This document shows positions 12,391-16,110 of a stretch of DNA of 40,027 nucleotides, in pieces; the stretch's first letter is position 1, and every line of letters starts with the position of its first letter. The notes beneath the pieces were generated by a model. The model worked only from the letters and a program-made list of their open reading frames with translations. It made no database searches and was not told where the DNA came from. The stretch comes from Bacteroidales bacterium (lineage in GTDB: Bacteria > Bacteroidota > Bacteroidia > Bacteroidales > UBA932). The position numbers were made by a program, and so were the translations under genes. The stretch lies in NCBI GenBank assembly GCA_017464245.1, contig JAFUDV010000027.1:1-40027 (forward strand), written 5' to 3'.

Positions 12391-13536
12391 GTGATAATCA
12401 GGCGCGAAGCATATGACCTCTCCCGGCGCAATACCTTCGGCATGAAGGTGTCCTGCCGCCTGTATGTGGAGGTCACGGAGGCGGAGGACTTGCTCGCGCT
12501 GGACTTCGACGCTCTCCCGCAGCCTCTCTTCGTGATGGGCGGCGGCTCGAACCTCCTTTTCACCGGCGACTTTCCGGGAACCGTGTTGCATCTGGGTAAT
12601 GTTTCCTGTCATTCTGAGCGTAGCGAAGAATCTGTCCGGATCACGCTCGGTTCCGGCGTTGTCTTCGACGATTTCTGCGCCTGGGCGGCCGCCGAGGGCC
12701 TCTGGGGCCCGGAAAACCTGTCGCTGATTCCCGGCGAGGTGGGCGCGAGCGCCGTGCAGAACATCGGCGCGTACGGCGTGGAGGCGAAGGATATCATCGA
12801 CACGGTACATGCCTTCGACCGGCAGGAGCGCCGCTTTGTAGACATTCCGGGTGCGGACTGCGGCTACGGTTACCGCACCTCGAATTTCAAGACCATCTGG
12901 AAAGGCCGCTACATCGTCACCGCCGTCACCTTCCGCCTCTGCGTCATCCCCCGCCCCGTCCTGGACTACGGAGGCGTGCGTAAGGCGCTGATTGATAGGG
13001 GGGAGGGTGTTTCTTTGCCGATCTCTGGCCACCCTCGGCCAGATAAGAGGGAGGGGCCCGCCGGTGTTACCGGTGGGAGGGGCCGGAGCGAAGCGGAGGC
13101 GATCGGCGAAGGAATACCCTTCCCCCTGACCCCGCAGCTCATCCGCGAAACCATCATCGGCGTCCGGGAGCAGAAGCTGCCGGACCCGGAGGAGATCGGG
13201 AGCGCGGGGAGTTTCTTCTGCAACCCGGTCATCGACAGGGAGCATTTCGGACGGATCGTGGCCATCGCGAAGGCGGAGAACGGACCGGAGTACAACGTGC
13301 CTCATTATGAGGTGGGTGAGCGCATCAAGGTGCCGGCCGCGTGGATGATCGACCAGTGCGGGTTCAAGGGCATGCGGCTGGGCGGGGCGCAGGTGTATCC
13401 GAAGCAGCCGCTCGTCATCGTGAATGCCACAGGCAGCGCCACCCCGGAGGAAATCATCGCCCTGGAACGGCGCGTCATCGGCACGATCAAGGAAAAATAT
13501 GGCATAGAACTCCACCCCGAAGTGGAGCACGTATAA
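12391..13536 (+). CDS. murB: UDP-N-acetylenolpyruvoylglucosamine reductase with two repeat inserts
   Basis: FAD enzyme that reduces the MurA product to UDP-MurNAc. Motifs: NTFGMKV at the start, the FAD loop VMGGGSNLLF (residues 48-57), IPGEVGASAVQNIGAYG (113-129), YGYRTSNFK, and AGSFFCNP with the catalytic Ser (residue 274). At 381 residues it is longer than usual. The excess is two foreign in-frame segments: residues 73-82 (repeat family A, CHSERSEESV) and about residues 203-246 (repeat family B, GHPRPDKREGP and GRGRSEAEA), the second just before the conserved LTPQLIRETI helix. The start is GTG 12391, directly after the aspS stop. Whether the inserts reduce activity is unknown, but the frame is intact and the gene is probably essential. 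Confidence 0.95.
   Translation: MIIRREAYDLSRRNTFGMKVSCRLYVEVTEAEDLLALDFDALPQPLFVMGGGSNLLFTGDFPGTVLHLGNVSCHSERSEESVRITLGSGVVFDDFCAWAAAEGLWGPENLSLIPGEVGASAVQNIGAYGVEAKDIIDTVHAFDRQERRFVDIPGADCGYGYRTSNFKTIWKGRYIVTAVTFRLCVIPRPVLDYGGVRKALIDRGEGVSLPISGHPRPDKREGPAGVTGGRGRSEAEAIGEGIPFPLTPQLIRETIIGVREQKLPDPEEIGSAGSFFCNPVIDREHFGRIVAIAKAENGPEYNVPHYEVGERIKVPAAWMIDQCGFKGMRLGGAQVYPKQPLVIVNATGSATPEEIIALERRVIGTIKEKYGIELHPEVEHV
12607..12639 (+). repeat. Short repeat, family A copy 1 (inside murB)
   Basis: TGTCATTCTGAGCGTAGCG followed by AAGAATCTGTCCGG. The same unit, slightly changed, occurs at 31608-31640 and, inverted, at 31534-31571. In the murB frame it encodes CHSERSEESVR. Confidence 0.75.
12997..13127 (+). 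repeat. Structured repeat, family B copy 1 (inside murB)
   Basis: Outer arms 12997-13023 and 13101-13127 pair over 27 positions: 23 Watson-Crick pairs and 4 G.U wobbles, no true mismatch. The core is segment 13027-13059, an inner hairpin 13057-13077 (9 pairs, one G.U) and segment 13075-13100. Both segments recur in the aminotransferase gene (32 of 33 and 26 of 26 identical), while arms and inner stem differ. Confidence 0.9.
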
Positions 13537-13540
13537 GCTT

Positions 13541-14848
13541 ATGGGCAAATTCATCATCGAAGGCGGGCACAGGCTGTCCGGCGAAATCACCCCGCAGGGC
13601 GCGAAGAACGAGGCCCTGGAGGTCATCAGCGCGGTGCTGCTGACCGCTGACCCGGTCGTCATCTCCAATGTCCCGGAAATCCTGGACGTGAAGAACCTCA
13701 TCGGCCTCCTCCAGGGAATGGGCGTGAAAGTGCAGCGTCTGGAAAAAGGGACCTACCGGTTCCAGGCCGACGAGGTGGACACGGCCTACATCGAGACGGA
13801 GGAGTTCGTGAAAAAATGCGCGGCGCTCCGTGGCTCGGTGATGGTCGTGGGACCGCTGCTGAGCCGCTTCGGACATGCTTGGTTCGCGAAGCCGGGCGGC
13901 GACAAGATCGGCCGCCGGAGGGTGGATACGCACCTGGACGGCATGGTCAAGCTGGGCGCCGCCATGGACTATGACGCGGACCGCCGTGCCTTCCATCTGA
14001 CGTCCGACGGACGCCTGACCGGCCGTTACATGCTGTTGGACGAAGCCTCCGTGACCGGTACGGCCAATATCGTCATGGCCGCCGTCCTCGCACGGGGCAC
14101 GACCACCATCTACAACGCCGCCTGCGAGCCGTACCTGCAGCAGCTGTGCAAGATGCTCAACCGGATGGGCGCGTTCATCGACGGCGTCGGATCGAACCTG
14201 TTAAGGATTCACGGCGTGGAGAAGCTCTACGGGACGAACCACCGGATCCTTCCGGACATGATCGAGGTGGGCTCCTTCATCGGCATGGCCGCCATCAACC
14301 AGAGCGAAATCACCATCAAGGACGTGTCCTGGTACGACCTGGGCATCATTCCGGACGCGTTCCGCCGCCTGGGCGTGAACCTGGAGCAGCGGGGCGACGA
14401 CATCTACGTGCCGGCACAGGAGAGCTATGAGATCGACTCCTTCCTGGACGGGTCCATCATGACCCTCGCCGACGCTCCCTGGCCGGGCCTTACCCCGGAC
14501 CTTCTTTCCGTGATGCTCGTGGTCGCAACCCAGTGCAAGGGCAGCGTCCTCATCCACCAGAAGATGTTCGAGTCCAGGCTGTTCTTTGTCGATAAGCTCA
14601 TCGACATGGGTGCGCAGATCATCCTGTGCGACCCGCACCGGGCCGTGGTCATCGGCCATGACCACCGGATCACGCTGAAGGCCGCCCGCCTGGTCTCCCC
14701 GGACATCCGCGCCGGCATCGCGATGCTCCTCGCTGCGATGAGCGCCAAGGGCACTTCCACCATCGACAACATCGAGCAGATCGACCGTGGCTACGAAGAC
14801 ATCGAAGGCCGCCTGAACGCCCTCGGGGCGCAAATTACGCGCGAATAA
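13541..14848 (+). CDS. murA: UDP-GlcNAc 1-carboxyvinyltransferase with Asp at the Cys115 site
   Basis: A 435-residue enzyme for the first committed step of peptidoglycan synthesis (enolpyruvyl transfer from PEP to UDP-GlcNAc). Conserved residues include Lys22-Asn23 in PQGAKNEAL and the loop PGGDKIGRRRVDTHLDG (residues 118-134). In most MurA proteins this loop has a Cys (E. coli Cys115), the target of fosfomycin; here residue 121 is Asp. The same exchange is known to give natural fosfomycin resistance in mycobacteria and Chlamydia with the enzyme still active. It starts 4 bases after the murB stop and overlaps the next gene by one base (TAATG). Confidence 0.96.
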   Translation: MGKFIIEGGHRLSGEITPQGAKNEALEVISAVLLTADPVVISNVPEILDVKNLIGLLQGMGVKVQRLEKGTYRFQADEVDTAYIETEEFVKKCAALRGSVMVVGPLLSRFGHAWFAKPGGDKIGRRRVDTHLDGMVKLGAAMDYDADRRAFHLTSDGRLTGRYMLLDEASVTGTANIVMAAVLARGTTTIYNAACEPYLQQLCKMLNRMGAFIDGVGSNLLRIHGVEKLYGTNHRILPDMIEVGSFIGMAAINQSEITIKDVSWYDLGIIPDAFRRLGVNLEQRGDDIYVPAQESYEIDSFLDGSIMTLADAPWPGLTPDLLSVMLVVATQCKGSVLIHQKMFESRLFFVDKLIDMGAQIILCDPHRAVVIGHDHRITLKAARLVSPDIRAGIAMLLAAMSAKGTSTIDNIEQIDRGYEDIEGRLNALGAQITRE

Positions 14849-16110
14849 TGGACTACCGGCATTTGTTTTCCTCCGACGTCCCTTCCTTCATGCGGAGCCC
14901 CGTCCGGGAAATCTTCCGGAAGGTGGACCTCAGCGCCATCTGCTCGTTCGCGGGCGGGTATCCGGCGGCCGTGACTTTTCCGGTGGAGGATTTGAAGACT
15001 CTGCCCGGCCGCGTGCTGGAGAAGTATGGGACCAAGGCGCTGCAATACGGTGCTACCCAGGGAGTTCCGGAGCTTCGGGAGGCTATTGCCGCCCGTTACG
15101 GCGTGCCGGTTTCCCGGGTGCAGATTACCACGTCGTCCCAGCAGGGCATCGACGTATGCACCCGCATCCTCTGCGACCCGGGCGAGGTCATCCTTACCAC
15201 CGAACCGACCTACCTGGGCGCCCTGCAGTCGTTCAAGGCGTATCGGGCCTTTGTAAGGCCGATCAGTGCTTTTACCCTTGATTCAGGGGAAGGCACACGT
15301 CCCCAAACCTATGGCCACCCTCGGCCATATAAGAGGGAGGGGCCCATCGCTAGCGATGGGAGGGGCCGGAGCGAAGCGGAGGCGGTTTGGGGATGTGTGC
15401 CTTCCCCGAATCCTGCCCGAGTAAAGTTCATCTATGTGATTCCCGATTTCAATAACCCTTCCGGGGAGACGATGACACTGGAGGAAAGGCAGGAGATTGT
15501 GGCGTTGGCAAGGGAGCTGGACATCGTGATTGTGGAGGACAGCCCGTACCGCGAGCTGCGGTACAGCGGGGAAGAGGTTCCTACGATCTATTCGCTGGCG
15601 CCGGAACGGACGCTGCATCTGGGGAGTTTCTCGAAGATCTTTGCGCCGGGCTTCCGCCTGGGCTGTATCATCGGCCCGGAGGAGCTGCTGGAGCAGATCT
15701 ACATCTGCAAGCAGGCGCTGGACCTGTGCCCGCCGGTATTCGACCAGTACATGGCCACGGAATTCCTGACGAGCGGGGCGCTGGATGCGAACCTTGTGAA
15801 GACGAAGGCCGAGTACCGCCGTCGCAGGGACCTGATGGTGAGCCTGTTGGAGAAGTATATGCCGGAGGGGGTTACATGGACCTACCCCGAAGGCGGGCTG
15901 TTCCTGTTCCTGACGCTGCCGGAAGGCATCGACACGATCGAAATGTACGACGAGGCCCTTGGGCGCGGCGTAGCCTATGTGGCCGGCTCGTTCTTCTTCC
16001 TGGACGGCAGCCACCGCAACACCATGCGGCTCAACTTCTCCTTCATCGCGGAGGAAAAGATGGAGCCGGGCCTGAAACTCCTGGGCGAAATCATCAAGGG
16101 ACGTTTATGA
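14848..16110 (+). CDS. PLP-dependent class I/II aminotransferase; DapC candidate
   Basis: A 420-residue fold-type I aminotransferase of the 2-aminoadipate/MocR-like branch without an N-terminal HTH. Motifs: FAGGYPAAVTFP near the N-terminus, YGATQGVPELREAIAARYG, YVIPDFNNPSG (PLP-ring contact), and LGSFSKIFAPGFRLG with the PLP-binding Lys (near residue 263). About 45 residues before YVIPDF are a foreign in-frame segment (repeat family B). The gene sits between murA and dapF, overlapping both, so a role in diaminopimelate synthesis (N-succinyl-LL-DAP aminotransferase, DapC) is attractive; this is inference from context. It could instead be a general aromatic or branched-chain aminotransferase. 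Confidence 0.8.
   Translation: MDYRHLFSSDVPSFMRSPVREIFRKVDLSAICSFAGGYPAAVTFPVEDLKTLPGRVLEKYGTKALQYGATQGVPELREAIAARYGVPVSRVQITTSSQQGIDVCTRILCDPGEVILTTEPTYLGALQSFKAYRAFVRPISAFTLDSGEGTRPQTYGHPRPYKREGPIASDGRGRSEAEAVWGCVPSPNPARVKFIYVIPDFNNPSGETMTLEERQEIVALARELDIVIVEDSPYRELRYSGEEVPTIYSLAPERTLHLGSFSKIFAPGFRLGCIIGPEELLEQIYICKQALDLCPPVFDQYMATEFLTSGALDANLVKTKAEYRRRRDLMVSLLEKYMPEGVTWTYPEGGLFLFLTLPEGIDTIEMYDEALGRGVAYVAGSFFFLDGSHRNTMRLNFSFIAEEKMEPGLKLLGEIIKGRL
15280..15412 (+). repeat. Structured repeat, family B copy 2 (inside the aminotransferase)
   Basis: Outer arms 15280-15309 and 15384-15412 pair along their whole length, with one bulged A and one G.U wobble. The inner hairpin is 15343-15360 (CCCATCGC-TA-GCGATGGG). 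The core segments 15313-15345 and 15358-15383 match the murB copy at 32/33 and 26/26 positions, and the core-arm boundaries are at the same places. The arm sequences are unrelated to those in murB. Confidence 0.9.

Follow-up and report, generated by a model that had tools for sequence, protein, structure and literature searches.

The window analyzed here is a 40,027-nt stretch of DNA from a Bacteroidales bacterium (contig JAFUDV010000027.1, assembly GCA_017464245.1), and it carries two copies of a small structured element, one inside a murB-like gene and the other inside an aminotransferase-like gene (Table 1). An earlier note, made from the sequence alone, had described copies at 12997-13127 and 15280-15412 with a shared core and self-paired arms, and the analysis confirmed both at these places. 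Each copy lies in + orientation within its host gene and leaves the open reading frame (ORF) uninterrupted. The order is the same in both: left arm, hairpin P2, GAGGGAGGGGCCC, variable hairpin P3, GGGAGGGGC, hairpin P4 and right arm, the two arms forming the outer stem P1. The core segments are 33/35 and 27/27 identical over the stretches as cut here, and the identities given in the note (32/33 and 26/26) hold for its slightly shorter cuts. Its account of the arms was likewise accurate: those of the murB copy form 23 Watson-Crick pairs and 4 G.U pairs with zero other mismatches, and those of the aminotransferase copy form 28 Watson-Crick pairs with one G.U and one bulged A. Folding of the + strand gave z-scores of -6.4 and -6.6 for the two copies (0/200 dinucleotide shuffles as good), and folding of the - strand gave -3.0 (1/200 shuffles as good) and -4.9 (0/200).

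Table 1. Host genes and parts of the two element copies, in window positions.
Feature	Position	Strand	Remarks
murB-like host ORF	12391..13536	+	Open across element; named by sequence and recall; orthologues aligned
murB copy, left arm (P1 5' strand, 27 nt)	12997..13023	+	
murB copy, hairpin P2 TCTGGCC/GGCCAGA, loop ACCCTC	13024..13043	+	P2 found across copies; alignment of 29
murB copy, pseudoknot, P2-loop strand CCCTC	13032..13036	+	Partner 13047-13051
murB copy, GAGGGAGGGGCCC: pseudoknot 3' strand and conserved GGGAGGGGCCC	13047..13059	+	
murB copy, variable inner hairpin P3 (CCC...GGG)	13057..13077	+	
murB copy, second conserved segment GGGAGGGGC and variable hairpin P4	13075..13100	+	
murB copy, right arm (P1 3' strand, 27 nt)	13101..13127	+	
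Aminotransferase-like host ORF	14848..16110	+	Open across element; named by sequence and recall
Aminotransferase copy, left arm, 30 nt	15280..15309	+	One bulged A
Aminotransferase copy, hairpin P2, loop ACCCTC	15310..15329	+	
Aminotransferase copy, GAGGGAGGGGCCC: pseudoknot 3' strand and conserved segment	15333..15345	+	
Aminotransferase copy, variable inner hairpin P3	15343..15360	+	
Aminotransferase copy, second conserved segment and P4	15358..15383	+	
Aminotransferase copy, right arm, 29 nt	15384..15412	+	

The window copies belong to an element family that is common in this Bacteroidales genus, and chance is excluded as an explanation. A loose core pattern, GGGAGGGGCCC-N(5,35)-GGGAGGGRY, was found in 288/400 genomes of the genus and its reversed control in 0; a version with a longer P3 was found in 160/400, against one genome (G061) for the reversed control. 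The window's own genome has seven matches to the core pattern, and all 7 were read, each in different self-paired arms. Across the order, 5/247 genomes matched, the window's own included, and four loci read outside the genus had clear arms in two cases (L295, L297). Relatives identified by protein search are mostly rumen and gut Bacteroidales. The element occurs in core genes, e.g. murB, murE, argE and trmH. Among 146 copies, a frame open for at least 60 codons on both sides was found in sense for 37, in antisense for 36, on both strands for 11 and on neither for 62. Rfam 15 returned zero matches at the gathering score in the window and none over both copies (12900-15500) at E-values up to 10, and a limited literature search turned up no earlier report of the element.

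The core of the element has a covarying hairpin, P2, and a pseudoknot. P2 was found in 133/138 copies (orthologues included), the five copies without a recognizable P2 being dropped from this survey, and the last two bases of its loop pair with the two bases preceding GGGAGGGGCCC in 128/133 copies, using six pair combinations. For covariation, 29 of the 119 non-redundant copies described below, each 108-122 nt long, were aligned. Both sides vary in 12/12 outer-stem (P1) pairs, 4/7 P2 pairs and 2/5 pseudoknot pairs, and all five pseudoknot positions pair in 29/29 copies (100%). Paired cells amount to 90.8% of the alignment vs 72.8% in shuffles, and the covariation score of 0.50 (0.17 in shuffles, 0.07-0.14 in slid versions) was reached by 0/500 shuffles, the number of both-side-varying pairs by 5/500. 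The third P2 pair fails in 15/29 aligned copies, and the three scored P3 pairs never vary. Because the copies were cut by arm pairing, the covariation figures for the arms lean to structure; the pseudoknot figure is unaffected. As a separate observation on the core, the two GGGAGGG tracts flanking P3 (conserved GGGAGGGG ... GGGAGGG) might in principle fold into a G-quadruplex that would compete with the pseudoknot, and four copies (L029, L036, L074, L120) hold an extra hairpin-rich stretch of ~50 nt between P2 and GGGAGGGG.

For the study of the arms, 9 copies without a recognizable P2, 5 with fewer than 12/16 pairs and 23 near-duplicates were removed from 156 copies, leaving 119 non-redundant ones. 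Every copy kept sits within a hairpin, with within-copy pairing of 0.87-0.99 over arm positions 1-16 that falls to background near position 30. The arms have a median length of 25 (5-95% range 14-35) and are, by eye, loosely alike in composition, the left arm being G-rich and the right arm C-rich. The pairing is private to each copy: when the left arm of one copy was set against the right arm of another, 0.26-0.35 of positions paired without optimization. Since the arm boundaries had been picked for best within-copy pairing, the crossed control was re-optimized in the same manner, and pairing was then 15.12/16 within copies vs 9.74/16 in crossed pairs, 6/116 of which reach 12. The earlier note had set two observations against its own reading beforehand, namely unpaired arms and arms shared by most copies, and neither was seen in the 119 copies. 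The same sites in trmH (L207, L208, L209), murB (L045) and murE (L243, L253) also hold long private hairpins that pair almost perfectly around a short loop and lack the core; L045, L243 and L253 have the loop GCGTCGCTTCGCGACCCTGTACGGG in common and are perhaps a second family with private arms.

Comparison of copies by site makes the outer arms look like products of the locus. Among pairs of copies whose cores are at least 95% identical, orthologous pairs (n=12) are 0.97 identical at arm positions 1-12 and 0.94 at positions 13-24. Such pairs at other sites (n=16, both orientations considered) are 0.78 identical at positions 1-12 and 0.55 at 13-24, and the background is 0.31 and 0.32, respectively. 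Leaving out genome G082, the same-core pairs at other sites give 0.72 and 0.50 (9 pairs). We propose that the element, when it moves, carries along the inner ~10-12 nt of its outer stem. The arms are thus not wholly unrelated between copies, as the earlier note had described them: much of the inner ~12 bases is common to same-core copies, and most of the arm to the G082 copies.

At two sites, comparison with element-free relatives reads as native flank in one arm and an inverted copy of it in the other, clearly at L384 and with an imperfect copy at L386. The L384 element directly follows an opposite-strand gene ending ...QVSHD-stop. The outer bases of the right arm correspond to the codons S-H-D-stop, of which the left arm bears an inverted copy that differs by one change. 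Among relatives without the element, some of which carry other small inserts nearby, 13/13 have V-S-H-D/E-stop at this place, and the exact string CAGTCGTG is found in 5/13; the left-arm copy was found in 0/13 over the 120 bases searched. At L386, the outer right arm TCTTATAATC corresponds to the codons I-I-R of ...DVIKIIR, near the end of the gene. Element-free L404 and L405 read DVIRIIRTRK-stop, and occupied L386 and L452 read DVIKIIRGRGQR-stop. In element-free loci, TCTTATAATC is exact in L406 and matched at 8-9/10 bases in L403-L405 (L403 and L406 by eye). The left arm has TCTTATAATC inverted as GATT-TAGGA, which lacks one base and differs at another, and occupied L452 has the same; this inverted copy is missing upstream in element-free L404 and L405 (0/2), with L403 and L406 judged by eye. 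Two further relatives at this locus (L412, L451) hold other hairpins.

Three gene sites also suggest arms derived from the flank. In MurE (L234) the left arm encodes E-L-P-E-D-I, where empty L236 has H-I-P-E-D-I and other relatives are similar; in the murB of another genome (L166) the end of the right arm is formed by L-T-P, codons of L-T-P-Q; and in the aminotransferase (L046, L049, L050, L051, L076) the arms extend into conserved V-x-x-I/M codons.

The fold appears to be under constraint on one particular strand. Copies with an arm score under 26 were dropped from the mismatch counts and from the orthologue-change counts given below. Over their inner 22 columns, 118 non-redundant arms have 2396 Watson-Crick pairs, 71 G.U, 17 A.C, 55 other mismatches and 28 gaps, the difference between G.U and A.C having a p of 5e-9. 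The G.U to A.C ratio is 18:8 for copies in sense to the gene, 24:3 for antisense copies, 21:3 where there is no gene and 8:3 for both strands. As the G.U excess is also present in antisense copies, it seems to be the element's own plus strand that is folded; the constraint, or a strand-asymmetric mutation, tracks the element and not the host transcript. Covariation and G.U bias support the view that the fold matters, and to that extent they support the suggestion of the earlier note that the element is propagated by its fold.

The combined results suggest a model in which a mobile structured element carries a short stem that is lengthened by copying of the flank at or soon after insertion, and we give this model about an even chance. 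The best explanation takes the element to be non-autonomous, interspersed and structured, with a length of roughly 60-140 nt for the core and its short inner stem. In the core, the P2 loop would pseudoknot with GAGGG-type bases, followed by GGGAGGGGCCC, a variable P3, GGGAGGG and usually a variable P4, and this core would fold as a single strand, the plus strand of the element. At or soon after insertion, the element's own stem may serve as the fold-back: after synthesis through one flank and the element, the new strand would fold onto the inner stem, copy ~10-20 nt of the just-made flank in inverted form and return to the original template, resulting in flank-inverse, element, flank. A single step of this kind could produce private arms that vary in length and lie on either side, as observed, and the new copy would start inside a fresh hairpin. 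Later changes to the copy would come from hairpin deletions and from substitutions made in pairs, with G.U tolerated on the plus strand. The data show the family, the fold, the private paired arms, the locus-following outer arms and the inverted flank at one clear and one imperfect site; neither an insertion event nor a mobilizing enzyme was observed, and we infer that fold-back takes place, when it does so, that RNA or single-stranded DNA is the intermediate and that an enzyme mobilizes the element. A more general proposal, to which we give somewhat less than an even chance, is that this is a class of elements whose terminal stem is made anew from target DNA each time they insert, by self-primed fold-back synthesis; only the pseudoknotted core and a short stem would travel, and the fold, rather than the end sequence, would be inherited.

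Several points weigh against this model. The same-core pairs are few, overlapping and not independent, and one 'unrelated' pair (L129/L183) is probably from the same site. Genome G082 supplies 7/16 of the same-core pairs at other sites, with much of the arm shared and weak outer pairing; its copies L169-L172 share 14-22/24 arm bases, and their outer half pairs at only 4-9/12 positions. At seven sites (TrmH L168, ArgE, L383, L387, L391, L394, L396) no arm is recognizable as native, the relatives being too diverged, and the copying step is read from end states in which relatives are 10-30% different from the occupied genomes. P3 and P4 are also private, and flank copying does not account for them. 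Part of the G.U bias could be mimicked by strand-asymmetric C-to-T mutation, and the other mismatches and gaps counted above are present in the arms as well. The idea in the earlier note that flanking arms are picked up by hairpin copying or template switching is thus borne out at L384, imperfectly at L386 and suggestively at the three gene sites, but not at the seven sites without a recognizable native arm.

How the arms change after insertion bears on the alternatives. Each copy was used once in the orthologue comparison, which was limited to pairs with 78-99.5% flank identity and at least 40% unchanged positions. The 20 orthologous pairs contain 99 Watson-Crick double changes (50 transitions, 49 transversions) vs 23 single changes, with a further 8 other double changes and 7 gap columns. 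Such a pattern should result when changes arising in one arm are copied across to the other, and it would suit an alternative in which the element inserts with short ordinary arms and later replication template switching (quasi-palindrome correction) extends the stem stepwise into the flank and mends mismatches, the same chemistry as in our model but separate from insertion. PMC8794818 describes template switching as both making and mending hairpins, with loop inversions as a rare product. Nevertheless, same-orientation orthologues with flank identity of at least 89% differ at 0-2 arm positions each (8/8 pairs kept), and lengthening would therefore need to be fast post-insertion and slow afterwards; we regard stepwise lengthening as possible but rather unlikely. 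An ordinary structured RNA or repeat family, in which one ancestral arm diverged by compensatory mutation under selection for pairing, would display the covariation and the G.U-rich mismatches, as well as the loosely shared arm composition and the recognizably related arms of murB orthologues, and a conserved core with freely varying stems is typical of any structured RNA family. Such a history is improbable given that the outer arms differ between same-core sites, yet are kept in orthologues of similar core identity, and that some arm bases are host codons.

Two further explanations take the hairpins to be older than the cores they hold. Opposite core orientation at one site is common (105/234 orthologous copy pairs), and some genomes have several identical P3 sequences, as might result if arm-mediated recombination or gene conversion swapped cores between old hairpins whose arms stay old. 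The arms, however, differ in the 7 inverted pairs compared and in 2 of the same-core comparison, unlike in a plain flip, and the native codons in one arm would be left unexplained, making core swapping very unlikely. The same differences speak against a simple flip of the core between fixed arms, and in the inverted pairs read as examples the core subtype or P3 also differs; repeated insertion at hot loops is therefore likelier than flipping. The remaining alternative is insertion into pre-existing hairpins, e.g. terminators, the arms being the target. Every kept copy sits in a hairpin, and L024, a murB without the element, retains a 7-base inverted repeat where L074 is occupied. Against this, the second arm is missing in element-free relatives at L384 (0/13) and L386 (0/2; L404, L405), and L024 is more simply a deletion because several relatives share the insertion, so that we find this the least credible of the explanations. 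L024, L060 and L062/L063 were considered as pre-insertion sites and dropped: element-type or outer-arm pieces are kept there, which fits deletion, and the losses of the element at these loci look like hairpin deletions. Element pairs in opposite orientation, with cores ~150-210 bp apart, were also observed (L180, L181 and L182 in genome G398, L183 in G323).

Genes for Y1_Tnp-like proteins, which we take to be RAYTs, were considered as the mobilizer. Among 151 genomes, 95 have both these genes and the element, 18 the element only, 14 the Y1_Tnp-like genes only and 24 neither (p 8.6e-8, uncorrected for relatedness); the window's own genome has elements and no Y1 hit. The element was found beside Y1_Tnp-like genes at 0/22 loci, and this candidate was rejected as it co-occurs across genomes but was not adjacent at the loci searched. 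A resident reverse transcriptase was likewise rejected, as no association was found in the 151 genomes (counts 31, 82, 10 and 28; odds 1.06, p 1.0). Some of the 19 Y1_Tnp-like genes read with their flanks have other palindromes at their ends (by eye). Palindromic repeats of the TGGACCAGGTCCA type occupy the same aminotransferase loop as the element in L038, L041, L056, L071 and L073, and a palindrome somewhat like this type flanks the Y1_Tnp-like gene L308; the TGGACCAGGTCCA-type repeats may be its REPs (repetitive extragenic palindromic sequences).

The element shares features with several known systems. It is similar to REP/REPIN sequences in being a folded single-strand repeat in a genus where Y1_Tnp-like genes are common and co-occur with it in counts uncorrected for relatedness, but unlike in REP/RAYT systems it adjoins these genes at 0/22 loci. 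Miniature inverted-repeat transposable elements (MITEs) are also short, non-autonomous and dispersed and have inverted repeats. The ends of MITEs are common to their copies, and the earlier note had set the arms apart from such ends; the shared-end test indeed failed (9.74/16 crossed vs 15.12/16 within copies). To our knowledge, although no search was aimed at this point, no Rickettsia palindromic element (RPE) has been reported with a private, flank-derived stem or a covarying pseudoknot. RPEs are ~150 bp elements situated in frame within unrelated genes (PMC10969869). Compared by description rather than by sequence, our element resembles them in size and in-frame insertion in protein genes (both window ORFs are open), and differs in that sense copies are about as frequent as antisense ones (37 and 36 of 146), the core pseudoknot covaries and the outer stem is private, with part of it derived from the flank. 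Template switching is described in PMC8794818 as a mutation process in RNA genes by which a hairpin stem is made or mended, an inverted copy of adjacent DNA producing this in one step. Here, by contrast, the process would be tied to a dispersed element at different loci.

Small palindromic elements known to date bring their own inverted ends. In the element studied here the outer part of the stem appears to be made at the site. This would be an unusual way to finish an insertion, the target being duplicated in inverted rather than direct form, and there is a fair chance that the element constitutes a new kind. It would offer a natural multi-copy system for watching template-switch hairpin creation at many loci, and it seeds in-frame peptide segments in core genes of a large gut genus.

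In viral contigs, 62 stretches match the loose core pattern; 43 matches are one identical phage hairpin, accompanied by a few near variants, and several others are low-complexity repeats. Roughly estimated, a collection of this size should yield a few matches by chance, and nothing is concluded from them. The recurring phage hairpin, GGGAGGGGCCCGC-TTT-GCGGGAGGGAC (L322 and other viral contigs), resembles the P3 region and is without P2 and pseudoknot in the examples printed. Finally, the murB-like gene of the window encodes CHSERSEES at 12607-12633 (residues 73-81), the translation of another dispersed repeat, which in relatives is found in murB, argE and the aminotransferase at the same loops.

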